Shown piece by piece: positions 1,031 through 53,138 of a stretch of DNA of 64,000 nucleotides. The position numbers were made by a program, and so were the translations under genes. The notes beneath the pieces were generated by a model that did not search any database, was not told the origin of the DNA, and saw only the letters and a list, made by a program, of their open reading frames with translations. The stretch's first letter is position 1; every line of letters begins with the position of its first letter. This DNA is from a bacterium (GTDB lineage: Bacteria > SZUA-79 > Acidulodesulfobacterales > Acidulodesulfobacteraceae), in NCBI GenBank assembly GCA_021845685.1, contig JAJZVN010000005.1, positions 62,001 to 126,000 on the forward strand, given 5' to 3'.

Positions 1031-3784
1031 TTATAATCCGCCAAAACCTTCGCCCATACTGAATTGGATTCTAGTACCGGTATTTCCGTTAATAGGCGTT
1101 CCTAATATTTTACCGTATGTTATTTCAATGGGTCCGAATGGAGAGTACCAGTTAAAACCTATACCGGCTGCCTCATCAAGATTAAATGGATTAATTGTCT
1201 GCGATGTTGTCCATGCGTTACCAGCATTCCACCATAAAAAACCATAAAATCCCATTTTTTTCATAATAGGGATAAGATATTTTGCTCCCACGGTCATCAT
1301 TCTTGTGCCGCCATAAAGCAAACCGTTTTCTGTAGGTCCGACAGAATCATACATAAATCCTAGAAGAGGATATGTATTGGTAATACCGCCGACAAAAAAC
1401 CGTTGATATATAGGCAATGGAACATTAGAATTTGTAGGGTCTATATATCCCCCCTGAATGCTCGTCATAAAAGACGTTCCCCACCATAAAGGAATATAGT
1501 GATTTTCCTGAGCGGTAAATTTAATAAAATCATCATTTCCTCCTATGAGGGAACCTGCTAAACTTGCTCTAAAACTTGCCATATCTCCTGCCGTAGGAAC
1601 CATAGGATTGTTAAGAGTATTGTACACAGTAGTAAAAGATACCTCGCTTGTTATAAGCTTACCCTGAGGAAGTATATTTGCTAAACCAGGAATTATCACC
1701 GAACTATCCTGTTCAATCAAATATCTTACATATTCCGTAAGTATGCGCCTATATAAGGGAACCCCGACTGTAACAGAGCCGCCGGCCGAACGGTATGCAA
1801 ATTCATAATAAAGAGAATTGAAAGTATCGTATACCGATGCATCAATAGAAATAGGTCTCCCGTAAAGATATGTAAGATACGGCTGCATAACATTCAAGCT
1901 GTATGATTGATAAGGTCCGCCTACCTGAGCATTAAGAGAAGCAGATATACCTGTTCCGAACAGGTTAGATTCTGATATTGAAGATATTGCCATAAATGAC
2001 GTAGCCGAACTATATCCGCCTCCTATAGTAAATTTCCCGGTATTTTCTTCTTTTACATGAACTTTAACATTTAATATGTTTTTCCCCGGAACTTTTTCGG
2101 TAACTATAGTAGCATGCTTAAAGTATGATAGATTTTTAAGATTTTTACGTGATAATTTAATCAATTCAGGATTATATTTTTCTCCCGGATATATAACTAA
2201 CGCTCTTAAAATAACATAGCTGTACGTTACATCATTGCCTGTAATAGTGATCTTTCCAAATCTTGCAATTTTACCCTTATGAATTGTTAGTTTAACAAAA
2301 ACCGATCTATTTTTTCTGCTTATTTTTATAGACGGCTCTACATTTGCAAAAGCATATCCTTCGTAAGTCAAATATTTAGTGACTTTTAAAATATCCTTTT
2401 CTATCATTTTTCTGTTAAAAATATTGCCTGCTTTAGTTTTTAAAAGTTTAATGATAGAGTTGTATTCTTTAATATGCTTATCTTTATTTTTTATTATAAC
2501 GTTGACATCTGATATTCTATATTGAGGACCTTGATGTATAGTTAACAATATCTTAACAAATTTTTTATTTTTTGAAAAAATAAATTTCGGTTTTTTTACG
2601 CTTACATTAATATACCCATGATTATAATAAAAACTTAAAAGTTTCATAATCTGACCGTTTAATTTTGCTTTTTCAAATTTTCCGGCTCCAGTTATCCAAG
2701 AAAGCATATTAACTGTTTTAATATTCATAACACCTAAAAGTTTTGCGGAAGAATACGAAGTATTTCCTCTCAAAACAACTTTAGAAACCATAATAGGGGA
2801 GTTTTGAGTTATAATAAAATTTAAACCGACATAATTTCCTGAAAGTTTTATCTTGTTAAGCCTAATTTTAGCATTATAATAACCTTCTGCCGAGTAAAGA
2901 AATTTTAATATTTTTAAAGCCTTAAAACCTTTATATGCACTATAAGGAGTGTTCGGTTGAATATTAATTATTTTTTTTATTTTTTTTACCGATATAGACC
3001 CGTTTCCGGAATATTTAACATACTTAATATAAGGTCTTTCAGAAACTATAAAAGTTATAATTAACCCGTAAGGCGAAGATTTAACATTAACAGTTATATT
3101 TTTAAAATATCCGGTTTTATATAATTTTTTTATGCTTCTATTTACATTTTTAATTGAATAGATACCGCCTTTGTTAAGCAGTATATCATTAAGAATAAGA
3201 CCTGTTCCAACCCTGATATTTCCTTCTACGCGTATTGCATATATCTTTTTAGAAAATTTAGCGTGACTTGATAATGCCGATAATGGTTTTTTACTATAAT
3301 TCTTTGCAATTAAAGAAGAGACCTTATGAGCTAAAAGACCGATATTTTTATTTAGCGATTTTTCGCCCGTCCCTATATATCTCAGTGTTTTTGAATGATA
3401 AATATTATTCAAATTAACTATCATAGCATGGAGCCTGTATTGCGAGCCGAATCTGGCAATGCTGCCTGTAATAATATAATGAGAATTATACAGCAATCCC
3501 AATTTTTTAATTCTAATTAAATTAATTTTTTTATTAAAGTTAAAATAAGGGGGGGTTTTAAGATGCGAATAAGCTATTACAAAATATGGCTTGGAAGATT
3601 TTATATATCGCAAAAAAGCAGTTTCAAAAGATTTATCAATATTTGACAAAACTGGTTTGCCTTTTTGATGAAAAAATCCGGTAAAAACATTGCTATTATT
3701 TATAGATGCATAAGCAATGCCGTTTAAACACAGAACAACAATCAGAATCAAAAATATATATATAATATTTTTATAATATCGCAT
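1031..3784 (-). CDS. bamA: Outer-membrane assembly factor BamA with extra N-terminal domain
   Basis: A 917-residue Omp85-family protein that folds and inserts beta-barrels into the outer membrane. It has a signal peptide (~1-26), an extra domain (~40-165), POTRA repeats (~180-585) and a C-terminal 16-strand barrel (~588-917). It is about 100 residues longer than typical BamA because of the extra domain. That domain has a 'YIITGSIARFG...L' pattern like TolB-N/FlgO-like folds; this is a resemblance by eye only. The usual loop-6 VRGF/Y motif reads PLLGF, so its normally invariant arginine is missing. The protein ends in GGL rather than the usual terminal aromatic. Neighbours are lolD upstream and skp downstream. 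Confidence 0.93.
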   Translation of the reverse strand: MRYYKNIIYIFLILIVVLCLNGIAYASINNSNVFTGFFHQKGKPVLSNIDKSFETAFLRYIKSSKPYFVIAYSHLKTPPYFNFNKKINLIRIKKLGLLYNSHYIITGSIARFGSQYRLHAMIVNLNNIYHSKTLRYIGTGEKSLNKNIGLLAHKVSSLIAKNYSKKPLSALSSHAKFSKKIYAIRVEGNIRVGTGLILNDILLNKGGIYSIKNVNRSIKKLYKTGYFKNITVNVKSSPYGLIITFIVSERPYIKYVKYSGNGSISVKKIKKIINIQPNTPYSAYKGFKALKILKFLYSAEGYYNAKIRLNKIKLSGNYVGLNFIITQNSPIMVSKVVLRGNTSYSSAKLLGVMNIKTVNMLSWITGAGKFEKAKLNGQIMKLLSFYYNHGYINVSVKKPKFIFSKNKKFVKILLTIHQGPQYRISDVNVIIKNKDKHIKEYNSIIKLLKTKAGNIFNRKMIEKDILKVTKYLTYEGYAFANVEPSIKISRKNRSVFVKLTIHKGKIARFGKITITGNDVTYSYVILRALVIYPGEKYNPELIKLSRKNLKNLSYFKHATIVTEKVPGKNILNVKVHVKEENTGKFTIGGGYSSATSFMAISSISESNLFGTGISASLNAQVGGPYQSYSLNVMQPYLTYLYGRPISIDASVYDTFNSLYYEFAYRSAGGSVTVGVPLYRRILTEYVRYLIEQDSSVIIPGLANILPQGKLITSEVSFTTVYNTLNNPMVPTAGDMASFRASLAGSLIGGNDDFIKFTAQENHYIPLWWGTSFMTSIQGGYIDPTNSNVPLPIYQRFFVGGITNTYPLLGFMYDSVGPTENGLLYGGTRMMTVGAKYLIPIMKKMGFYGFLWWNAGNAWTTSQTINPFNLDEAAGIGFNWYSPFGPIEITYGKILGTPINGNTGTRIQFSMGEGFGGL

Positions 3785-3828
3785 AATTTAAATAAGTTAT
3801 CAAATATAAAAAAACAAGTCAATTAATT

Positions 3829-4533
3829 TTAATTTAATATTTTTTTTATAGAGCCGTTCTCAATTGTAATTTTAATATTCATCATATTTGAAAAATTTAA
3901 ATCATGGGTAACTACAATTAATGTTTTATTATATTTTTCTTTCAAATTAAAAATCATATTTTGCAAAGACTCAGCTTGCTTAGGATCTAAGTTTCCGGTA
4001 GGCTCATCCATAAGAATAACTTTAGGAGATGCTACTAAAGCTCTCGCAACTGCAGTCCTTTGCTGTTCACCGCCTGAAAGCATATAAGGTTTAAAATACA
4101 TCCTGCGCTCAAGACCAAACTCGCATAAATAATCTTTAGCCTTTTTTATCGCCGATGCTTTTGCCTCACCCTTTATAAACAAAGGCATCGCCACATTTTC
4201 TACACAATTAAATTCATTAAGAAGATAATGAAATTGAAAAACAAACCCTATATTTTCGTTGCGAAATCTTGCCAAACGATTATCGGGCAAATTGTTGACA
4301 TCTATATCATCAAAAAAATTGACGGAACCAGAGTCTGGATTTAAAAGACAACCCATTATATGCAGCAATGTGCTCTTTCCTGTTCCCGATTCACCTGTTA
4401 TTGCAATGGAATCACCATATTTTATATCTATTCCCGTATTTTTCAGTACTACAACTTCATCGTTATTAGCTCCTGCTTTAAAAATTTTAGAAACATTACG
4501 GAGAGAAACGGCATTTATAAAGTTTTCATTCAT
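3829..4533 (-). CDS. lolD: Lipoprotein-releasing ABC transporter ATPase LolD
   Basis: The ATPase of the LolCDE-type complex, which extracts lipoproteins from the inner membrane for transfer to the outer membrane. Visible motifs are Walker A GESGTGKST, the signature LSGGEQQR and Walker B VILMDEPTGNLD. I place the start at the ATG at 4533 (MNENFINAVSL) because the longer frame begins with TTG; an AAGGTG Shine-Dalgarno lies upstream. This start overlaps the lolC stop by 8 bp, indicating translational coupling. The length is 234 residues, normal for LolD. MacB-type ATPases look similar, but the LolC partner and bamA context favour Lol. Confidence 0.9.
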   Translation of the reverse strand: MNENFINAVSLRNVSKIFKAGANNDEVVVLKNTGIDIKYGDSIAITGESGTGKSTLLHIMGCLLNPDSGSVNFFDDIDVNNLPDNRLARFRNENIGFVFQFHYLLNEFNCVENVAMPLFIKGEAKASAIKKAKDYLCEFGLERRMYFKPYMLSGGEQQRTAVARALVASPKVILMDEPTGNLDPKQAESLQNMIFNLKEKYNKTLIVVTHDLNFSNMMNIKITIENGSIKKILN

Positions 4534-5746
4534 ATCGCACACCTTCGGCAGGGTCAATTTTACTTGCTTTATATGACGGATAAATTGTAGCTATAAAGCT
4601 GAGGAGTAAAGCAGAGATACCTATTATAAGAAATTCGTTTAAAGTCATTCTTACCGGTAAATTAGTTATATAGTAAACAGAAGGAGGGAGTTTAACGATA
4701 TGATAAACTTCCTCAATATAACTGATAATAAAACCGGCGCTTAAACCTATAAATGTTCCTACTAATCCGATTATGACGCCTTGAATTATAAAAATTTGCA
4801 TTATATTTTTGGAGCTTGCTCCTATTGATTTTAATATTGCTATATCTTTTCTTTTTTCCATTACCACCATTATCAATGTAGAAATTATATTGAAAGCGGC
4901 TACCAGAACTATCAAAGATAGTATAACAAACATTGTAAGTTTTTCAAGTTTTAAAGCCGCAAATAAATTTTTATTTAATTGTTCCCAGCTTAGAGCGTAG
5001 TAAGGAGAATGTAAATTTTTATCAATATTAGCGGCAACGGTCATTGCATTATTTATATTATATAACTTAATTTCCATGCCTGTTACTTCATTAGAGCTTA
5101 ATCCGATAAAATTTTGCGCACTTCTTAAAGAAATAAACGAAAATGTAGAATCATAGTTGTACATTCCGCTATCCATAATACCGCTTACTATGAATATTTC
5201 AGATTTAGGCATTATACCTAAAGGTGTAATCTCGCCTTGCGGAGAAATAACACTTATCTTGCTGCCTATATCAACTCCTAATCGTTGAGCTAAAACTTTT
5301 CCAAGAATTATTCCGTTATATTTTTTATTGTTTAAAGATTTTAAACTCCCGTCAATAATATATTTACCAAGATTGGTCGTTTTTGATGCGCTGCCCGTAT
5401 CAACTCCTCTAAGCACGCTTCCCGTGGATGTAGTGTTTGAAGACAGCATAACATCGGTATAAATAAAAGGAGCAACTTCTTTAACGCCTTTTATTTTATT
5501 TATTTTTTTAGCAATTTGTTTATAATCGGGTATCAAGCCGCCATAATTTAGCACAACAACCTGAGATTCAATACCTACAATTTTTTCTTCAAGCGCATGG
5601 TCAAAACCGTTCATAACGGAAATTACGACAATAAGAGCCATAACCCCTATGGCTATTCCGGCTATTGAAATAAAACTCAAAAGAGATATAAAAGAATTCC
5701 CTTTTGGTTTTAAATAATGCAATGCAACTTTTGTTTGAAAATTCAT
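4526..5746 (-). CDS. lolC: Lipoprotein-releasing ABC permease LolC/LolE family
   Basis: A 406-residue FtsX/MacB-type permease. One membrane segment lies near residues 20-45, followed by a large periplasmic domain (~45-260) and three membrane segments in the C-terminal 140 residues. The N-terminus (ALHYLKPKGNSFISLLSFISIAGIAIGV) is typical of LolC/LolE. Only one permease gene is present, so the complex is probably a homodimer with LolD, as in many non-gamma proteobacteria. It is co-transcribed with lolD and bamA, linking lipoprotein release to outer-membrane assembly. Confidence 0.9.
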   Translation of the reverse strand: MNFQTKVALHYLKPKGNSFISLLSFISIAGIAIGVMALIVVISVMNGFDHALEEKIVGIESQVVVLNYGGLIPDYKQIAKKINKIKGVKEVAPFIYTDVMLSSNTTSTGSVLRGVDTGSASKTTNLGKYIIDGSLKSLNNKKYNGIILGKVLAQRLGVDIGSKISVISPQGEITPLGIMPKSEIFIVSGIMDSGMYNYDSTFSFISLRSAQNFIGLSSNEVTGMEIKLYNINNAMTVAANIDKNLHSPYYALSWEQLNKNLFAALKLEKLTMFVILSLIVLVAAFNIISTLIMVVMEKRKDIAILKSIGASSKNIMQIFIIQGVIIGLVGTFIGLSAGFIISYIEEVYHIVKLPPSVYYITNLPVRMTLNEFLIIGISALLLSFIATIYPSYKASKIDPAEGVRYE

Positions 5747-5812
5747 AAATTTATTTTATTTTTTTATTCATTTAATTTAATTACTTAACATTAGTTAAGT
5801 TTATTTCATAAT

Positions 5813-7297
5813 TTATTTAACAGGTTTAAGTAATGGAAACAAAATAACATCCCTTATAGAATAAGAATTAGTTAAAAGCATAACTAACCGGTCTATCCCA
5901 ATTCCGCACCCCGCAGCAGGAGGAAGACCGTATTTTAACGCTTCTATATAATCTTCGTCTATTTCGGCAGGCAAACCTTCTTTTAATTTAATATCAACTT
6001 GAGCCTTAAACCTTTCTTCCTGATCGAAAGGATCATTTAATTCTGAAAAAGCATTTGCCAATTCTCTTCCTGCAACAAAAAATTCAAATCTGTCAACAAC
6101 TTTAGGATCTATATCATTTCTCCTTGCAAGCGGAGAACTTTCTACCGGGTAGTCGGTCACAAAAGTCGGATTTATCAATTTAGATTCTACCGTTTCCTCA
6201 AATAAAATTGTTAATAGCTCCCCATAGCTCATATTATTATCAATGGATAAATTTAAATTTTGTAAAATTTTAATTATTTTGTCGGAAGAATCTATATCTT
6301 CGGTTGAAAAACCCGCAACTTCGTACAAGCTATCCTGCAATTTAATCTTTTTAAAAGGAGGGGCAAAATTAATATCGGTTCCTATATAATTTATTTCTAA
6401 TTTTCCACAAATTTTTTCAACTAAGCCCGAAATCATCTTTTCTACAAATTTCATCATATCTTCATAATTGCTATAAGCCATATAAAATTCAAGCATTGTG
6501 AATTCAGGATTATGTTTAACGGAAATTCCTTCATTCCTGAAATTTCTGCCAATTTCATATACTCTGTCAAATCCGCCGACAATCAATCTTTTCAAATAAA
6601 GTTCCGGAGCGACTCTCATATAAAGTTCTAAATCCAATGCGTTATGATGCGTTTTAAAGGGTCTTGCAGTAGCGCCTCCGGGATTTGCATGCATTATTGG
6701 AGTCTCAACTTCTAAAAATCTGTCGTTATTTAAAAAAGCTCTTATATAGCTAATAATATCGGCTCTTTTTATAAAAATATCGCGGACATCTTTATTTGCA
6801 ATTAAATCAACGTATCTTTTTCTAAACCGCACCTCTATATCTTTAAGTCCATGCCATTTCTCAGGCAGCGGCAATACCGATTTGCTTAAAAGTTTTATGC
6901 TTTCTGCCTTAATTGTAAGTTCGTTTGTTTTTGTTCTAAATAAATGACCTGTTACACCGCAAATATCACCGGCGTCTAAAAATTTGTCAAAAAGTTCAAA
7001 GTCTTCGTCCTTGACCGAACCTTTCTGTATATAGCATTGTATTTCTCCGTAACCGTCTCTCAATCTGAAAAAAGAAGCCTTGCCAAAACTTCTTATTATT
7101 AAAATTCTTCCCGATGTTTTAATATGTATATTATTTTCTTCTAAAAATTCTTTAGAAGCATCATTATATTCAGATAAAATATCTTCTATTACATTCTCTT
7201 TTACAAATTTATTACTAAACGGATTTATTCCTTTTTCTCTTAATGCATTAATATTATTAATTTTATTTTTTTCTATAATATTTAATTCTTCATCCAT
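5813..7297 (-). CDS. lysS: Lysyl-tRNA synthetase, class II
   Basis: Charges tRNA-Lys in the cytoplasm. The 494-residue protein has an N-terminal OB-fold anticodon-binding domain (~60-150) and a class II catalytic core. Motif 2 is seen as FRNEGISVKHNPEFTMLE and motif 3 as GCGIGIDRLVML near the C-terminus. An AAGGTG Shine-Dalgarno lies just before the ATG. It sits between prfB and lolC, the usual order in Geobacter-like genomes. Length and motifs are normal. Confidence 0.97.
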   Translation of the reverse strand: MDEELNIIEKNKINNINALREKGINPFSNKFVKENVIEDILSEYNDASKEFLEENNIHIKTSGRILIIRSFGKASFFRLRDGYGEIQCYIQKGSVKDEDFELFDKFLDAGDICGVTGHLFRTKTNELTIKAESIKLLSKSVLPLPEKWHGLKDIEVRFRKRYVDLIANKDVRDIFIKRADIISYIRAFLNNDRFLEVETPIMHANPGGATARPFKTHHNALDLELYMRVAPELYLKRLIVGGFDRVYEIGRNFRNEGISVKHNPEFTMLEFYMAYSNYEDMMKFVEKMISGLVEKICGKLEINYIGTDINFAPPFKKIKLQDSLYEVAGFSTEDIDSSDKIIKILQNLNLSIDNNMSYGELLTILFEETVESKLINPTFVTDYPVESSPLARRNDIDPKVVDRFEFFVAGRELANAFSELNDPFDQEERFKAQVDIKLKEGLPAEIDEDYIEALKYGLPPAAGCGIGIDRLVMLLTNSYSIRDVILFPLLKPVK

Positions 7298-7567
7298 TTT
7301 ATCACCTTTATCATCTTATTAATATTTATTTAATCATTTTATATTTATGAATATTAATTATATATACATACATATAATAAAATTTACTCAATTGCAGAAC
7401 ACTGTTTTTAAGCCTTCTAATACAGTTCTACTTTGTCTGTAAGGAAACGGTATAGACTTCCCACACGATGATAGATAATAGTGTTTATGTTTATATCGTT
7501 CCGTATTTCTTAGTTATTACGCTAACATTGTCTGTAAGGGCGGGATGACACTTACGCAACAATTGTT
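7298..7567. other. lysS-prfB intergenic gap with short repeats
   Basis: This 270-bp gap has no convincing ORF. It holds two copies of TTGTCTGTAAGG (7433-7444 and 7529-7540). An imperfect inverted pair (AGAAC..TGT and ACAGTTCT) lies near 7396-7430. It looks like a worn repeat element rather than a regulatory region, but no family can be named. Confidence 0.4.
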
Positions 7568-8732
7568 TTACGAAGAAATTTGACTAATAAGATATCCGTT
7601 AATAAATTCATCTATATTTCCGTCAAAAACACTTTCAGTATCATATATGGTAACCCCTGTGCGATGGTCTTTAATAACCCTGTTAGGATTAAGCGTATAT
7701 GATCTTATCTGCGAACCCCATGATATTTCTTTTTTATCCTTTTGCAATTTATTTTCTTCTTCCTCTTTCTTTTTTCTATAATAATCGTAAAGCCTGACTT
7801 TTAAAAGTTTTAGCGCAGTATCTTTATTTTTATGCTGGGACCTTTCATTCTGGCATGCAACTGCCACTCCTGTCGGCAAATGTGTAATCCTAACCGCCGA
7901 ATCCGTGGTATTAACATGCTGCCCGCCTGCCCCGCTTGATCTGTATGTGTCAATTCTCAAATCTTTTTCATCTATAATTATTTCGGAAGTATCTTCTATT
8001 TCCGGATAAACAAACACGGAAGCAAATGACGTGTGCCTGCGTTTATTAGAATCAAAAGGGGATATCCTTACAAGTCTATGAACTCCTGTTTCCGATTTAA
8101 GATAACCGTATGCATAAACCCCCGAGACAATAAATGTTACGCTCTTTACGCCGGCTTCGTCTCCTGCGTTAAACTCCATAATATTGACGGAAAATTTCTT
8201 TTTGTCTGCCCATCTTAAATACATTCTTAAAAGCATAGACGCAAAATCCATAGATTCGGTGCCGCCTGAACCTGCATGTATTTCAACAATTGCATTTAAT
8301 TTATCGTCTTTTCCAGAAAGAGTTAATTCAATCTCTAAAGTTAAAATTGTTTTTTCTAATGTTTTCAAATTTTGTTCAATTTCTGCCAATAATCCAGAAT
8401 CATTTTCTTGTATAGCAAGACCTGCCAATTCTTTTAAATTTTTAAATTCTTCATAAACTGCAATAAAAGGATTTAGTCGATTATCTAAATACGTTTTTTC
8501 TTTTAAAATAGATGTAGATAAAGATTTATTACTAAAAAAATCTTCGCCCGCCGCAATTTTATTAATCTCTTCAATTCTTTGATTTATTTTATCCGGGTCA
8601 AAGGCTCCTCCGTATTTTAGCTAGTTTATCATCTAAAATCTCTATATTTTTTTCTATAAAATCAATATTAATTATAGTATCTGCATGAACGCTGTCGGAC
8701 ATTTCTTTATTATTAGTTTTAATATCTTTCAT
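7568..8732 (-). CDS. prfB: Peptide chain release factor 2 with programmed +1 frameshift
   Basis: RF2 terminates translation at UGA and UAA. Two frames encode it. The first runs from ATG 8732 through 44 codons ending ...AKIRRSL to an in-frame TGA at 8600-8598. The second continues in the +1 frame from GAC at 8599 (DPDKINQRIEEINK...) to 7568. The body has the SPF tripeptide (SPFDSNKRR) that recognises UGA and the GGQ loop (GAGGQHVN). The combined product is about 387 residues, slightly longer than usual. The ATG overlaps the lnt stop as ATGA. An AGGAG lies about 15 nt upstream, so a start at the second Met (8702) cannot be excluded. Confidence 0.95.
8597..8612 (-). promoter_or_regulatory. prfB autoregulatory +1 frameshift site
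   Basis: On the minus strand this reads CGGAGGAGCCTTTGAC. A Shine-Dalgarno-like GGAGG is followed after exactly three bases by CTT TGA C. This is the same geometry as the E. coli prfB site, where low RF2 lets the ribosome slip from CUU to UUU past the UGA. The downstream +1 frame is RF2, so RF2 here should limit its own synthesis. Confidence 0.95.
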
Positions 8733-41255: not shown

Positions 41256-41834
41256 TTACGGTTTTAAATATGCATACCCTTCGGATTCTCTTATAATAAT
41301 TTCACCTTGGGCTGAAGGAACAACCGTTACAAATGAGTATAATTTTGATATCGGAATATGCAATTCATATAAACTGTTTGCGCACTGGGCTAACTCTACT
41401 CCGTCCTTTTTTAATGTTAATAAATCTTTTTTATATCCGTTTCCTTTAAAATACAAATGTGATCCTGCGCTGAAAGCCAACAGTTCTATTTTTATATGAC
41501 CTTTTAATCTTGGATCGTTTAAAGCATTGTGGATATTATCAATAATCTTATTCATTTTTACTTTGTTGTTTGCGCTTATTACGTAAATTGCATGATATGT
41601 TTTTCCCGGAACCATAGGGGCGCCCATTGTGAAAGCAGGTTTTATAGATAAATTCGGGAAATATTCTCTTACCCCGTTCACGTTATGCCAACCATACCAT
41701 TTTGCAGGATGGACAGTTGCAGCCGTTCCTCTCCAATTTTTTGCATAAGCATTTGAAGTTAATGAAAATACGGCAATAGCAAATGTCATAATTGCAATAT
41801 TTAATATTAAGAAATTAAAAAAATAACTTTTCAT
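41256..41834 (-). CDS. Secreted DsrE/DsrF-family sulfur-relay protein
   Basis: A 192-residue protein with a signal peptide (~1-31, ending NAYA-KNW), so it is exported. The DsrE-like domain (~75-192) shows LLAFSAGSHLYFKGNG, the cysteine motif AQCANSLYEL, VVPSAQGEIIIRESEGYAYLKP and the usual order of strands. Cys151 is the only cysteine in the whole protein. DsrE-family cysteines carry persulfide. It lies 70 bp downstream of doxDA with a strong AAGGAG. I infer a periplasmic sulfur-carrier role beside thiosulfate oxidation. Confidence 0.85.
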   Translation of the reverse strand: MKSYFFNFLILNIAIMTFAIAVFSLTSNAYAKNWRGTAATVHPAKWYGWHNVNGVREYFPNLSIKPAFTMGAPMVPGKTYHAIYVISANNKVKMNKIIDNIHNALNDPRLKGHIKIELLAFSAGSHLYFKGNGYKKDLLTLKKDGVELAQCANSLYELHIPISKLYSFVTVVPSAQGEIIIRESEGYAYLKP

Positions 41835-41904
41835 TTACAATTTCTCCTTTTTATTTTTTTTAATTAATTTTTTACTTATAATAAATTTTAGTTATTTATT
41901 ATCA

Positions 41905-42960
41905 TTATCCGCTATACGTAAAATTTGTCGAAAATACAGCGCCGCTGATATTGAGTAATTCTAATTTATAATTACCGTGTGTCAAGCTTTTTGGCATTTT
42001 AGACATAGGCATTGATATGACAGCCTTAGCGCCAAGTTCCATTACCATACTGTATTTATTAATTATTACTTTATTCACATATATATTATGAATATCCGAT
42101 TTAGGCAAACTTGTTATATCTTTTGTATTCCATTTATATACTGTTTCGCCTGAAGAATTTACTAACTTTGCTTCTATTATATTTGCATATGCCGCCGGGC
42201 TGCCGCCTGTTCTATAGGCCGTAAATTGAATATTTTTATTTACAATTTTCGCATTAGATACGGAAACCACTAATGTTTTACCGAAATTATGCAATTTCCC
42301 CCATACACCGCCTTGAAACATCTGATTTGTTCCAAATGTAACAACTGTTCCAAAAATAGCAAATACAGCCACCCAAGTTTTAAAACCAGATCCCCATAGC
42401 GGACCATTTCCAATCAAACGATATCCGAATGAATCTGCCGTTTTAGGCCATGCGTTTCTGACTAAATCATCAAATGACCACGAGCTGCCGACAAATAATA
42501 TTAAAAGCCCGACGACCATCTCTACCGAACCTACCTGCCATTCGTCTAAACACGTTGACCCAAGCCATCCTGATCCGAATAAAATTCCAAACGCTAATGC
42601 AACTGCTCCTAAACCGCCTAATCTTGAAAATAACCCAAAAATAAGAGACATACCAACAAGAAACTCAATTACCGTAAAAACATCCAGAAACACCGCAAGA
42701 GCGCCCGGATGAAGAAGCAATAGATGTATTAGCCCTCCAACGCCAAGAAAATAACTCGCATGAGGTAAAAAAGTACTGAACTTATGACCCACCCATAAAG
42801 GAGAATTAGGTTCAAGTTTTCCTGCAGACAAAACTACTCTTCTCCATGCAGCGGAAAAGAACATCCATCCTAAAGTTATTCTTAACGGAATTGCCGCATA
42901 GCCGAGATAACGATATAGCAAATTATCATCCATTTGATTCGAATTATTTTTATTTGACAT
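41905..42960 (-). CDS. doxDA: Thiosulfate:quinone oxidoreductase, fused DoxD-DoxA
   Basis: A membrane enzyme expected to oxidise thiosulfate to tetrathionate with quinone as acceptor. Residues ~15-175 form a DoxD-like membrane domain with four to five hydrophobic segments and TCLDEWQVGSVEM. After another membrane segment (~195-210), residues to the end form a DoxA-like extracytoplasmic beta domain. In Acidianus the two are separate subunits, whereas fusions are known in bacteria. The start is ATG 42960, with GAGG nine bases upstream; a longer frame to 42975 begins with TTG. It is flanked by a solute-binding protein gene and a dsrE-like gene in one direction. Confidence 0.87.
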   Translation of the reverse strand: MSNKNNSNQMDDNLLYRYLGYAAIPLRITLGWMFFSAAWRRVVLSAGKLEPNSPLWVGHKFSTFLPHASYFLGVGGLIHLLLLHPGALAVFLDVFTVIEFLVGMSLIFGLFSRLGGLGAVALAFGILFGSGWLGSTCLDEWQVGSVEMVVGLLILFVGSSWSFDDLVRNAWPKTADSFGYRLIGNGPLWGSGFKTWVAVFAIFGTVVTFGTNQMFQGGVWGKLHNFGKTLVVSVSNAKIVNKNIQFTAYRTGGSPAAYANIIEAKLVNSSGETVYKWNTKDITSLPKSDIHNIYVNKVIINKYSMVMELGAKAVISMPMSKMPKSLTHGNYKLELLNISGAVFSTNFTYSG

Positions 42961-43109
42961 TTTTCTTAACCTCAATTTTGAATAATTTAATAAATTAACT
43001 TTAAAATAAATTTTCTATCGCAGGATTAGGACATATAGGCTTAATAGATATACATCATACATATATGATGATATGATAAAAAATTATTAATTTATTACAT
43101 AATGGTTCA

Positions 43110-44111
43110 TCATGGAGCTTTAAAACCGTACCTTTCAAATATTTTTAAACTTGTTTTTGTTTTCAAAAAATTTAACCATTCTTTGGCAGCAACAGGATTT
43201 GGAGCGCCTTTTGTCATAGCTGCGCCATAAAGAGCGGTCGTATTTTGATTAGCAGGGATCTTAACTCCTGTTATAGGATTTCCAATCATTTCCTGAAATT
43301 TTACTTCAGAAAACCAATTTACTCCGGCATCGGATTTATGCTGCATTATTCTTATCGGAGTCTGACGATGATGAATATGGGTTAAATATACTCTTCCAGA
43401 TTTAACTCCGTAGTTATAAATAGCCTGTTCTAATTTTTTACCGCCGGCTTTTATTAAGGAGGCTTTAATTTGTCTTGCAATTCCTTCCCATTCAGGATTT
43501 GGCATAGACAAAGTTAATTTTGGGTTTAAAAAGCTTTTTAAACCGGTAATATGATATGGATTATCTTTATCGGTCATAATTTCAAGGTCATTTGTAACAT
43601 AAGTTACTTTTTTACCCACAGTCATGCCTATTTTATTGGTATAATTTAATTTTTTTGCTCCGGCCATATATACATCAGGAACAACGTGCATAGTTAAATT
43701 ACCCAATGTAATCGTATCCCCGTGTTTCCACATTCTAATCAATATTCCGGGAGGAATAGTAATATAAAACACATGTTTAATATTTGGGTATTCTTTTAGG
43801 AATGCTTTAACTAAACGTGGAACAACGAAGAAAATATTTCCTCCGATATAGAGCACTAAACTGGATTTTGGATGTAACGTGACGGCAGTAATGTTTCCGT
43901 GATAATCCGGATTATTGTCAACTGTTATTGCATTGAATACGTACCCTTGATGAAGTGCAGGGTCGCCTTGTTTGCACCATGGAGGGAATATCCGTTTAAT
44001 CCCCATAGCAAATGAACTATCGGACATTGTCATAAAAATTACAAAAACAAAAGCCATTGCAATACCTAAAAGTTCAAAAAACTTTAGTGAACTTTTGTTC
44101 CTTTTGTTCAT
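43110..44111 (-). CDS. Orphan periplasmic substrate-binding protein (ModA/PBP2-like)
   Basis: A 333-residue exported protein with a signal peptide (~1-35, ending SSFAMG). The rest resembles type II periplasmic binding proteins of the molybdate/sulfate kind. This is clearest in the ending NPVAAKEWLNFLKTKTSLKIFERYGF and in SMPNPEWEGIARQI. No ABC permease or ATPase is adjacent. A single cysteine (Cys46, in FPPWCKQGD) lies just after the signal peptide. A strong AGGAGG precedes the ATG. It is first in the cluster before doxDA, suggesting a sulfur oxyanion ligand, but that is inference. Confidence 0.75.
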   Translation of the reverse strand: MNKRNKSSLKFFELLGIAMAFVFVIFMTMSDSSFAMGIKRIFPPWCKQGDPALHQGYVFNAITVDNNPDYHGNITAVTLHPKSSLVLYIGGNIFFVVPRLVKAFLKEYPNIKHVFYITIPPGILIRMWKHGDTITLGNLTMHVVPDVYMAGAKKLNYTNKIGMTVGKKVTYVTNDLEIMTDKDNPYHITGLKSFLNPKLTLSMPNPEWEGIARQIKASLIKAGGKKLEQAIYNYGVKSGRVYLTHIHHRQTPIRIMQHKSDAGVNWFSEVKFQEMIGNPITGVKIPANQNTTALYGAAMTKGAPNPVAAKEWLNFLKTKTSLKIFERYGFKAP

Positions 44112-44238
44112 AAATGATACCTCCTAAAATTTAATTTAATTTGAATTTTTAAATAATAGTAATTTTATTTTTTTAATCTTAAATATTCCGATGTAACTTT
44201 GATATATCTATTATCTATCATTTTAATACATTATTATC

Positions 44239-44887: not shown

Positions 44888-45591
44888 AGCGATATAATCA
44901 AAAACCGCTCCATTTCCTACGCAAACAGGCTCGTTGCCCTAACAAAAGCAATGTTCGGCAAAGCCCTTGACTGGGAACTGGTAACTGAAGAAACCGTTAA
45001 GCGTGTCAGAAAGGTAAAACTGTTAAAAGGCGAAAACAAAAGACTGCGCTACCTTTCGGAAGAAGAAGCAGAATGCCTGTTATCTAACTTCGACAAGCAT
45101 TTAAGGCCGATTGTCATAACGGCGCTCCACACGGGAATGAGGCGGGGCGAGATATTCGGTCTCACTTGGAACGGGGTGGATTTAAAAAACAGGCTAATCC
45201 TGTTAGACAGGACGAAAAACGGCAAAAGCGGGAAGTTCCGATTAACGATACGCTTTTTGCGACTTTATCGGGTCTAACCAGACAGATAGGATGCGATTTC
45301 GTGTTTTACAATCCCGACGCGGGCAGGGGCTACGATAACCTGAAACGGTCATGGGGAAACGCATTGCGAAAAAGCTACATTCTGGACTTCCGCTTCCACG
45401 ACTTGAGGCATACGTTTGCTTCGTGGTTGGTCATGGCAGGAGTGGATATACCCACGGTTCAACGGCTAATGGGGCATAAGGATATCAAAATGACGCTAAG
45501 GTATGTAAACCTGGCTCCGGCCCACATTAAGAACGCGATATTGGTTTTGGACAAAAAAATCACAATCGGCAGGAAACGTGGAATTTCATAA
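44888..45591 (+). pseudogene. Tyrosine recombinase/integrase, 5'-truncated and frameshifted
   Basis: Phage-type integrase fragments. From 44888 the frame has the end of the core-binding domain (RLVALTKAMFGKALDW) and continues into the catalytic domain with TALHTGMRRGEIFGL (first Arg). Near 45229 one base is missing, and reading moves to the frame that carries EVPINDTLF, HDLRHTFASWLVMAG (His, Arg) and LMGHKDIKMTLRYV (His, Tyr nucleophile). All catalytic residues are present across the two frames. An in-frame TAA at 44885 cuts off the N-terminus. Its GC content is clearly higher than that of the flanks, so it is imported DNA. Confidence 0.88.
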
Positions 45592-47460: not shown

Positions 47461-48886
47461 TTAGAGTGTTACATAAACTAAATGATAAGCAGTAGGGTTA
47501 GAAATTTGACTGCTTGATGTCAAATAAGGAGCTGAACCGACTATTTGTATAACTTGGTCAACATTGCCTGAACCAGTGTTGTTATCCATAACCACATATG
47601 TATTGCCTGCCGCTGTCGTCCAGCCTACGCTTACATCTCCCGCCGCAGTATCTAAATGCTGAAGGTTAGTAATTTCAGTAGCTAATGATACGGTGCTTTC
47701 AGTGCCTAATGTTGAATTTAAAAGATTAATTGTATTGGATTGAGGAGAAAACACTATGCTATCGTTACTATTAACATTATTGATTGTATTGGCGCCAAGC
47801 GTCGTTGCATTGTTATAATAATTATTTACGTCAATATTATTAATTTGGCCTGCTCCGCTTCCAAGTGTAATTGTGTTAGAACCCGAACCTATAGATATAT
47901 TATCATAATAATTATAACCGCTTGTTCCGCTACTTGTTCCGCTAAGATTAATCGTGTTATTGCCGTTGCCTACAGATATATAATTGTCGCCGGAACCTGA
48001 TATTGTAATCGTGTTATTGCCGTTGCCTACAGATATATTACTGTAGCCGGAACCTGGTATTGTAATCGTGTTATTGCCTCCCGCCATATATATAGAATAG
48101 CTCCCCCCCCCCTCCTGTGGCTGAACTGCTTCCAAGCGTTATCGTATCGTTGCCAGTTCCTAACGAATATATAATATCTTGATAATAAGAGACATAGCCG
48201 TCCAAGATAGAAACATTAGGGTTTCCAAGCGTTATCGTATCGTTGCCAGTTCCCGTTATCATTATTATATTCTCGCCGTTGCCTGCTGTAAGCGTGATGT
48301 TGGCAGAAACATTTACTATAGAAAAATTGTGGTTGTTATTGCCGTAATTAAACGTGCCTCCGGTCGTAATATTAGTTATAATGCCCATATTTTGGGTGTA
48401 AAAATTATTAAGCGCAAATGTAGCGGGAGAGTATCCGCTAGGAGTAGAAGGACTCCCCGATATAGCATAGCTTGCGGTAAAATATTGAGCGGCGGTAAGT
48501 TTTTCATTCATTATTTCGGTATAGATATAATTTACAGAAGTGGACGGTGTATTTTCCACATCGTTATAAATAGAATTTACTATCTGCCCTATTGTCTGCG
48601 CTCCCGATGTATATTGATCTGACCAGTAAGTCAAACCGCTTGATAACGGCGCTCTGCCTAATAAGTTTTCAAAAATATTAGTAATTTCAGCGCCAATGGT
48701 GCCTGCTCCGGTTGTTCCTGCCGTAAACGCCGCTCCGCCGTTAACAAAAGTTGAAATAGAATTCAGCGCGGCAGTCGGATTTAAACTGAGCTGATCCGCC
48801 CAGTATGCTTGACCGCTTGGATCGGCAGGTCTATCAAACAGACCTAAATAAAGAGCATTAACTTCCGATTGAATACTCGCATTCAT
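47461..48886 (-). CDS. DUF4214/RTX-like secreted repeat protein split by a G10 tract
   Basis: Two frames make one gene. Residues ~1-160 contain DUF4214 segments (LYLGLFDRPADPSGQAYWADQL, LLGRAPLSSGLTYWSDQY). From ~195 there are glycine/aspartate-rich RTX-like strands (GTGNDTITLGN, GNGENIIM). A run of ten G (minus strand, 48112-48103) follows codon 258. As read, it ends after 271 residues; removing one G continues into 19-residue repeats of NNTITISGSG..ISVGNG type and a distinct C-terminus, giving 474 residues. AAGGAG precedes the ATG. Type I secretion to the surface is likely for this class. The sulfotransferase lies 98 bp upstream. Confidence 0.82.
47951..48078 (-). repeat. 57-bp tandem coding repeats in the DUF4214 protein
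   Basis: Units begin at 47951, 48008 and 48065 with the shared ATCGTGTTATTGCC, a strict period of 57 bp or 19 residues. They encode beta-strand repeats rich in Asn, Gly and Thr. A second motif of about 30 bp recurs at 48130-48160 and 48222-48253 in the same gene. Such repeats can expand or contract by recombination. Confidence 0.85.
48103..48112 (-). repeat. Poly-G(10) tract, candidate phase-variation switch
   Basis: Ten consecutive G on the coding strand in a genome of about 30% GC. It sits inside glycine codons. G9 would join the two frames of the DUF4214 gene and G10, as here, does not. Confidence 0.75.
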
Positions 48887-51689: not shown

Positions 51690-53138
51690 CTACCAAATGC
51701 CTGTTTTTAAGTACTCGTCTATAGCTTCGGCAGCAATTTTTCCCGCACCCATTGCAAGAATAACTGTTGCTGCGCCGGTTACTATATCTCCTCCTGCAAA
51801 TACACCCGTTTTGGTAGTCTTTCCGGTCCTTTCATCTGCTATAATATATCCCCATTTATTTAAATTCATACCTGGTGTACTTGAAGGCACAATAGGATTT
51901 ACGTTAGTTCCTATAGCTATAACTGCTGCATCAATATCGGTAACAAATTCAGATCCCTTAATCGGTATAGGCCTCCTGCGTCCGCTTTCATCAGGTTCCC
52001 CTAATTCCATCCTTTGGCATTCTACTTGTTTAATATTCTGCTTTTCATCGCCTATAAATCTTACTGGATTTATTAAAAATTCAAATTTTATCCCTTCCTC
52101 CTCCGCATGATGTATTTCGTCAATTCTGGCAGTCATTTCATTGCGGGACCTTCTATAAAATATTCTTGCATCGCTATAACCCAATCTAAGCCCTGTACGA
52201 ACAGCATCCATTGCAGTATTGCCTGCGCCAAAAACCACTAATGTTTTTCCGCATTTCATAGGAGTATCGTATTCATTCATATTATATGCGCGCATAAGAT
52301 TTATTCTTGTAAGAAACTCATTGGCGGAATAAATCCCGTTGAGTTCTTCCCCTGGAATATTCAAAAATTTAGGGGTTCCCGCCCCTGTTCCTATAAAAAC
52401 GGCGCTAAAACCTTTTTCGTTTAAAAGTTCATCTACTGTAATTGTCTTTCCAATAACAACATTAGTAAATATTTCTACTCCCATATCTTGCAAAATTTGA
52501 ACTTCTCTTAAAAGAATAGATTTAGGAAGTCTGAACTCTGGAACTCCATATATTAAAACACCGCCTACTTCATGTAAAGCTTCAAATATTGATACCTGAT
52601 AGCCTTTTTGCCTTAATTCTCCAGCTGTTGCCAATCCTGACGGTCCTGCGCCGACTATTGCAATTTTTTTATCATATAAATTTTTATTTTGAGAATTAAT
52701 CTTTTTACCGTGTTCAGCCTCATAATCCGCCACAAATCTTTCTAAGTAACCTATAGCCACGGAAGTTGAATCTTTTCTTTTTCCGATAGTGCAAACTTTT
52801 TCGCACTGATCCTCCTGAGGACAGACTCTGCCGCATATAGCAGGTAAGGAGCTTTTTTCTCTAATTTTCCTTGCAGCACCAAGAAAATCGCCCTTTTCGA
52901 TCAATTTTATAAAAGCAGGTATGTCTATGCTTACGGGGCATCCCTGTATGCAATATGGAACTTTGCAATCAATACATCGTTTTGCTTCTTCAATTGCATT
53001 TTCAATTGAATATCCGATAGCAACCTCTTTAAAATCTTGAACTCTTTCTTCAGGGTTTCTGGCCGGCATATCATGGCGTTTTATTTTTAATCTTTCCTTG
53101 TTGCCAAGAAGTGCGGATTCTTTATTTTGATTTTCCAT
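51690..53138 (-). CDS. nfnB: NfnB-type / glutamate synthase small-chain-like flavoprotein
   Basis: A 482-residue FAD protein with two [4Fe-4S] clusters. Cysteines are in CIDCKVPYCIQGCP and CGRVCPQEDQCEKVC. Two Rossmann folds follow, IAIVGAGPSGLATAGEL and TLVVFGAGNTAMDAVRTGL. This architecture is shared by GltD, SudA and NfnB. The upstream neighbour is an NfnA/SudB-like reductase rather than a glutamate synthase large chain, so NfnAB (ferredoxin- and NADH-dependent NADP+ reduction) is preferred. Automatic tools would call it GltA/GltD. Confidence 0.85.
   Translation of the reverse strand: MENQNKESALLGNKERLKIKRHDMPARNPEERVQDFKEVAIGYSIENAIEEAKRCIDCKVPYCIQGCPVSIDIPAFIKLIEKGDFLGAARKIREKSSLPAICGRVCPQEDQCEKVCTIGKRKDSTSVAIGYLERFVADYEAEHGKKINSQNKNLYDKKIAIVGAGPSGLATAGELRQKGYQVSIFEALHEVGGVLIYGVPEFRLPKSILLREVQILQDMGVEIFTNVVIGKTITVDELLNEKGFSAVFIGTGAGTPKFLNIPGEELNGIYSANEFLTRINLMRAYNMNEYDTPMKCGKTLVVFGAGNTAMDAVRTGLRLGYSDARIFYRRSRNEMTARIDEIHHAEEEGIKFEFLINPVRFIGDEKQNIKQVECQRMELGEPDESGRRRPIPIKGSEFVTDIDAAVIAIGTNVNPIVPSSTPGMNLNKWGYIIADERTGKTTKTGVFAGGDIVTGAATVILAMGAGKIAAEAIDEYLKTGIW

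Follow-up and report, generated by a model that had tools for sequence, protein, structure and literature searches.

The window analysed here, a stretch of 64,000 nucleotides from the genome of an acid-mine bacterium close to Ca. Acididesulfobacter, carries on its minus strand three co-oriented genes which code, in this order, for a solute-binding protein (SBP), a fused DoxDA and a DsrE-like protein. Purifying selection, adjacency and co-occurrence show that this trio is a real unit, beyond chance. With somewhat better than even confidence, we regard it as a periplasmic thiosulfate/tetrathionate module that would feed the quinone pool, and therefore as a variant of the known tsd-sbp-doxDA clusters in which a secreted DsrE protein stands in for TSD.

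The first gene (43110..44111, minus strand) encodes a secreted orphan SBP of 333 aa, assigned by its Pfam profile to the sulfate/molybdate-type family SBP_bac_11. The second (41905..42960, minus strand, with its ATG at 42960) encodes a thiosulfate:quinone oxidoreductase-like membrane protein of 351 aa, in which Pfam recognises fused DoxD and DoxA domains. The product of the third gene (41256..41834, minus strand) is a secreted protein of 192 aa, to which a DsrE fold was assigned by homology to a solved DsrE-fold protein. As originally predicted, all three genes have good ribosome-binding sites: the SBP gene is preceded by TTTTAGGAGGTATCATTT-ATG, with the core AGGAGGT (44112..44130, minus strand), the 149-bp gap between the SBP and DoxDA genes (42961..43109, minus strand) holds GAGGTT, and the 70-bp gap between the DoxDA and DsrE genes (41835..41904, minus strand) holds AAGGAG. 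The signal peptides predicted for the SBP and the DsrE-like protein were recognised, by eye, as signal-peptide-like N-termini in all homologues. Each of these two proteins contains the single cysteine that had been attributed to it (C46 and C151, respectively), and the original prediction had overlooked that C137 is likewise the sole cysteine of DoxDA.

SBP, DoxDA and the trio-type DsrE show an identical pattern of presence and absence among 30 genomes of the phylum, all three being found in the same 13. The trio is preserved, with the same order and strand, in each of 11 related loci, and this includes three loci whose flanks differ (L004, L007 and L013). Wherever both rates could be calculated, dN was far lower than dS for all three genes. 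The claim that the trio is a conserved sulfur-related unit is borne out by the 11 intact loci and the 13 shared genomes, and functional coupling to DoxDA was also counted as supported. The exact SBP-DoxDA-DsrE arrangement was found in one phylum only. The closest named genome is that of Candidatus Acididesulfobacter diazotrophicus AP1, in which the trio is 96-99% identical to that of the window; here the gap between the SBP and DoxDA genes measures 479 bp (L004 5522-6000), as compared to 149 bp in the window, as a consequence of an insertion of about 330 bp. When the window was compared to L006, L008, L010 and L011, the identities to L006 were discordant, being 93% for SBP and 86% for DsrE and just 73% for DoxDA (41905-42960 in the window). 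The DoxDA of the window's lineage may have been swapped by recombination or may evolve faster. We also observed by eye, in L009 (4310-4657, minus strand), a small DsrE-like frame without signal peptide that lies just upstream of the SBP gene on the opposite strand.

By its domain scores, the product of the second gene is a DoxDA of the thiosulfate:quinone oxidoreductase-like type, with 136 bits against the DoxD profile (cut-off 22.7) and 94 bits against the DoxA profile (cut-off 27); it falls short of the NCBIfam equivalog cut-off for TQO (NF041179), with 106 vs. 300 bits. In a sample of 299 genomes from the phylum of genome G174, the only match to DoxA (PF07680) came from G174 itself, which also carries the SBP. 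This co-occurrence is a single case and is suggestive.

Relatives of the SBP, 36-52% identical, come from plasmids as well as genomes, and the hosts include acetic acid bacteria, Burkholderiaceae, Bradyrhizobium, Bosea, Methylobacterium and Bacteroidota. In 23 such loci outside the phylum, which are not all independent because the plasmids of the acetic acid bacteria are nearly identical to one another (about nine TSD and six DsrE lineages are represented), the gene directly before the SBP encodes a TSD-like Tat protein in 14 cases, a secreted DsrE in six and neither of them in three. TSD and DsrE never adjoin the SBP together (0 of 23); locus L039 has a DsrE gene a few genes further upstream. 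DoxDA directly follows the SBP in eight of the 23 loci, always in the order TSD-SBP-DoxDA, and c-type cytochromes come after the SBP in several others; YeeE/YedE, Blh, a sulfur transferase and FAD/NAD(P)-binding oxidoreductases are also among the neighbours. In the window the DsrE gene lies downstream in the trio, whereas elsewhere TSD or DsrE is encoded upstream of the SBP, a difference that speaks against the favoured reading.

Clusters of the tsd-sbp-doxDA type have been published for Acidithiobacillus, Sulfobacillus and Gluconobacter (PMC2621215, PMC2754497, PMC6335251, PMC5114278). The arrangement tsd-sbp-doxDA(-rhd) is that of Acidithiobacillus ferrooxidans AFE_0041-0050, and similar ones are present on Gluconobacter oxydans pGOX1 and in Sulfobacillus acidophilus (TPY_2169-2172). 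The TSD of A. ferrooxidans, AFE_0042, produces tetrathionate, and its gene is grouped with sbp and doxDA (PMC6335251). Growth on sulfur induces the operon (PMC2754497), a response published for this species only. The trio shares with these clusters an orphan SBP gene followed by a fused DoxDA gene on one strand (the SBP and DoxDA of pGOX1 are 50 and 26% identical to those of the window, respectively), but has neither TSD nor rhodanese, and a secreted DsrE-like gene comes after DoxDA instead. The original prediction, which knew of no described system with this trio, is therefore contradicted for the sbp-doxDA core, published as tsd-sbp-doxDA, and holds for the arrangement in which DsrE replaces TSD, for which no publication was found. 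Literature searches on doxDA together with DsrE and a substrate-binding protein, and on doxDA together with a sulfate binding protein, returned no paper, and the text of the paper describing the Acidulodesulfobacterales contains no word beginning with "dox" (PMC6776010).

The SBP scores 119 bits against SBP_bac_11 (Pfam cut-off 25). When its profile was compared to solved structures, the closest was the sulfate-binding SubI (6ddn, 5e-12), followed by PEB3, Sbp (1sbp, 4e-9) and ModA. Invariant in the SBP are PPW (43-45), E209-G210, H247-H248-R249-Q250, which is part of the family motif LTHIHHRQTP (243-252), and W266. The latter aligns with Trp192 of 1SBP, a residue that contacts sulfate. With respect to SubI and Sbp, however, the SBP of the window has the family-specific HHRQ motif, lacks an ABC permease and carries Glu209 at the position of a pocket-region Ser of 1SBP, so that its ligand may not be sulfate-like. 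We infer that the ligand is thiosulfate or another sulfur oxyanion, with thiosulfate favoured, molybdate or some other ligand being also possible. A different explanation is that the SBP is a sensor, or a moonlighting sulfate/molybdate uptake protein served by a distant ABC permease, and that its adjacency to DoxDA reflects co-regulation only. We consider this quite improbable. Membership of SBP_bac_11, the presence of ModA among the solved relatives and a weak similarity to ModA speak in its favour, but this similarity (29 bits) misses the NCBIfam ModA equivalog cut-off (62.5 bits), and the SBP adjoins TSD or DsrE in 20 of the 23 distant loci. Moreover, no cognate permease or ATPase was found near the trio, nor annotated beside the plasmid relatives of the SBP. 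The absence of an ABC transporter near the SBP gene, already proposed by the original prediction, was confirmed by eye in the window, where the sole ABC-type genes are a LolD/LolC-like pair at 3829-5746. In several sulfur clusters a second, distinct short SBP (YGPGGPAPxMKEAA-type) is encoded near the trio-type SBP (L037 7018-7788, L038 6866-7639 and L039 4265-5029).

The product of the third gene is below the gathering score of Pfam DsrE (PF02635; 15.6 vs. 22.7 bits). Nonetheless, it matches the DsrE-fold protein MTH1491 at 7e-10 (3e-22 with a broad profile), with the conserved cysteine aligned. All its orthologues have a signal-peptide-like N-terminus, unlike the cytoplasmic DsrEFH-type assembly, and no dsrF or dsrH neighbours were seen around the related trio loci. 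AlphaFold models of the SBP and of the DsrE-like protein, built on shallow alignments, had mean pLDDT values of 37 and 33 and were too poor for a fold search.

TSD occupies the SBP-adjacent place that a secreted DsrE takes elsewhere. The two proteins were compared by hhalign, with broad alignments of 18 secreted DsrE and nine TSD sequences, the latter being assigned as TSD from the position of their genes, their Tat signal and their size, and AFE_0042 itself lying outside the comparison. The alignment had a probability of 90% (94% in the reverse direction) and a score of 48-53, as compared to 20.3 for the best of 59 column shuffles and one reversal and to 21.3 at most for the SBP and DoxDA profiles, and it placed the cysteine of the TSD "SCHN" motif on DsrE Cys151. 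With narrow alignments, made of four sequences of TSD and twelve of DsrE that were nearly identical, the probability was 1%. The likeness spans just 57 C-terminal columns and the N-terminal half of TSD gave no significant match to DsrE, so that the two need not share the full fold. A search of the TSD profile against solved structures yielded nothing useful. The profile comparison points to a relationship between DsrE and the C-terminal part of TSD, with active cysteine on active cysteine, although TSD (AFE_0042 type) is a protein of about 265 aa with a Tat signal and the DsrE of the window has 192 aa and a Sec-like signal. With the TSD profile, distant TSDs were recovered outside the phylum at 1e-104 to 1e-109, and no match came from 30 genomes of the phylum, including that of the window.

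According to the original prediction, the single cysteines of SBP and DsrE would take part in a periplasmic relay handing sulfur species to DoxDA or taking them from it. DsrE C151 indeed never varies, in all orthologues as well as in 18 diverse secreted DsrE proteins. By contrast, SBP C46 varies even among close homologues, which the original prediction had itself named as grounds for refutation: the SBP of L007 has Asn here despite being 95-96% identical to cysteine-bearing homologues, and beyond the clade the position holds Gln, Ser or a different residue. The two-cysteine SBP-DsrE relay was therefore rejected. DoxD C137, whose topology is a predicted one, lies in the motif TC[L/I]DEW and is invariant down to homologues that are 26% identical, and a DsrE-DoxD cysteine pair is possible.

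A precedent for the chemistry of such a cysteine is DsrE3A of Metallosphaera cuprina, a DsrE-family protein whose reactive cysteine takes thiosulfate from tetrathionate and forms Cys-S-thiosulfonate (PMC4175335). DsrE3A is encoded in a dsrE3A-dsrE2B-tusA cluster that adjoins hdr genes, and it hands the group to TusA, whereas the DsrE of the window is secreted and encoded beside DoxDA. This thiosulfonate chemistry, and an SBP profile that is nearest to sulfate binders, are among the reasons why we favour a thiosulfate/tetrathionate module. In such a module the SBP would capture a sulfur oxyanion, most likely thiosulfate, in the acidic periplasm and present it to its partner; Cys151 of the secreted DsrE would form Cys-S-thiosulfonate, from which a second thiosulfate would release tetrathionate; and DoxDA, with its invariant TCxDEW cysteine, would move two electrons to quinone. 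DsrE would thus occupy the slot that is held by TSD in Acidithiobacillus and acetic acid bacteria. The ligand, the direction of the reaction, the physical contacts and the thiosulfonate intermediate are all read from sequence and precedent.

Secreted DsrE proteins are also encoded elsewhere in the same genome. Contig C198 (24000-37000, locus L138, cluster at 2053-8434) carries the genes soxY-soxZ-DUF302-(SoxB-like)-dsrE-(SoxA-type cytochrome)-dsrE-(SoxA/X-type cytochrome)-dsrE, where the SoxB-like assignment is based on 5'-nucleotidase/metallophosphoesterase domains and gene position. The three DsrE proteins of this cluster are secreted, one of them being a probable lipoprotein. Genomes G007 and G026, which have neither the SBP nor DoxDA, contain a copy of the trio DsrE, about 60% identical, inside a sox cluster of the same kind; in G007 (L135) this close paralogue is one of four secreted DsrE-like genes. 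The fact that secreted DsrE proteins accompany both periplasmic thiosulfate routes in the phylum supports a role in sulfur metabolism and leaves a function as Sox carrier as the main rival. According to this explanation, DsrE would not be the partner that oxidises thiosulfate but a periplasmic sulfane-sulfur carrier, shared with a truncated Sox system and loaded from SoxYZ or by tetrathionate breakdown, and DoxDA would merely regenerate the oxidised carrier. Besides the interleaving of DsrE and sox genes and the copies in G007 and G026, soxCD is missing from the Acidulodesulfobacterales genomes that have been published (PMC6776010), and therefore the sulfane sulfur needs an acceptor. On the other hand, a secreted DsrE directly adjoins the SBP in six lineages outside the phylum, and the trio is adjacent and co-inherited. 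Considering all this, we judge the carrier function rather unlikely.

The favoured module would oxidise thiosulfate, but it might also run in reverse in this dsrAB-bearing host, with electrons from quinol reaching tetrathionate, or a different compound with a sulfur-sulfur bond, by way of DoxDA and DsrE. The relatives are inferred to be facultatively anaerobic and have sulfate-reduction genes (PMC6776010), and DsrE-type cysteines react with tetrathionate (PMC4175335). Nevertheless, the role described for DoxDA is an oxidising one, and in A. ferrooxidans it is growth on sulfur that induces the homologous operon (PMC2754497); we hold the reverse direction to be improbable.

If the favoured reading is correct, these uncultivated acid-mine sulfate reducers would gain a thiosulfate/tetrathionate route that, judging by DoxDA terms, is unlisted in their genome paper. 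Since TSD and secreted DsrE alternate next to the same SBP and have an aligned cysteine, TSD may itself be a cysteine enzyme of the DsrE type, with the SBP as the partner that loads its substrate. This bears on the division of thiosulfate oxidation between TSD and DoxDA in acidophiles and on the role of the clustered SBP; the mechanism of TQO has been called unclear, and the structure and mechanism of TSD have been asked for (PMC6335251). More tentatively, as a possibility to which we give less than even weight, secreted DsrE and Acidithiobacillus-type TSD might belong to a single superfamily of periplasmic thiosulfate oxidases that are heme-free and rely on a cysteine. These would work as enzymes of three parts: an SBP as loader, the catalytic cysteine of DsrE/TSD and an exchangeable electron outlet, which may be DoxDA, leading to quinone, or else c-type cytochromes. 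In that case, solute-binding proteins would be subunits of an extracytoplasmic oxidoreductase and not of a transporter.

As for the surroundings of the trio in the window, a tyrosine-recombinase-like integrase, split into two overlapping frames, lies just upstream of the SBP gene (44951-45591, plus strand). The stretch from this integrase to a gene resembling that of the glutamate synthase small subunit (51690-53138) is extra with respect to most related loci. At 47461-48886 (minus strand) we observed a repetitive NTITxxGNN-type protein, apparently a surface protein, which is also split over two overlapping frames.
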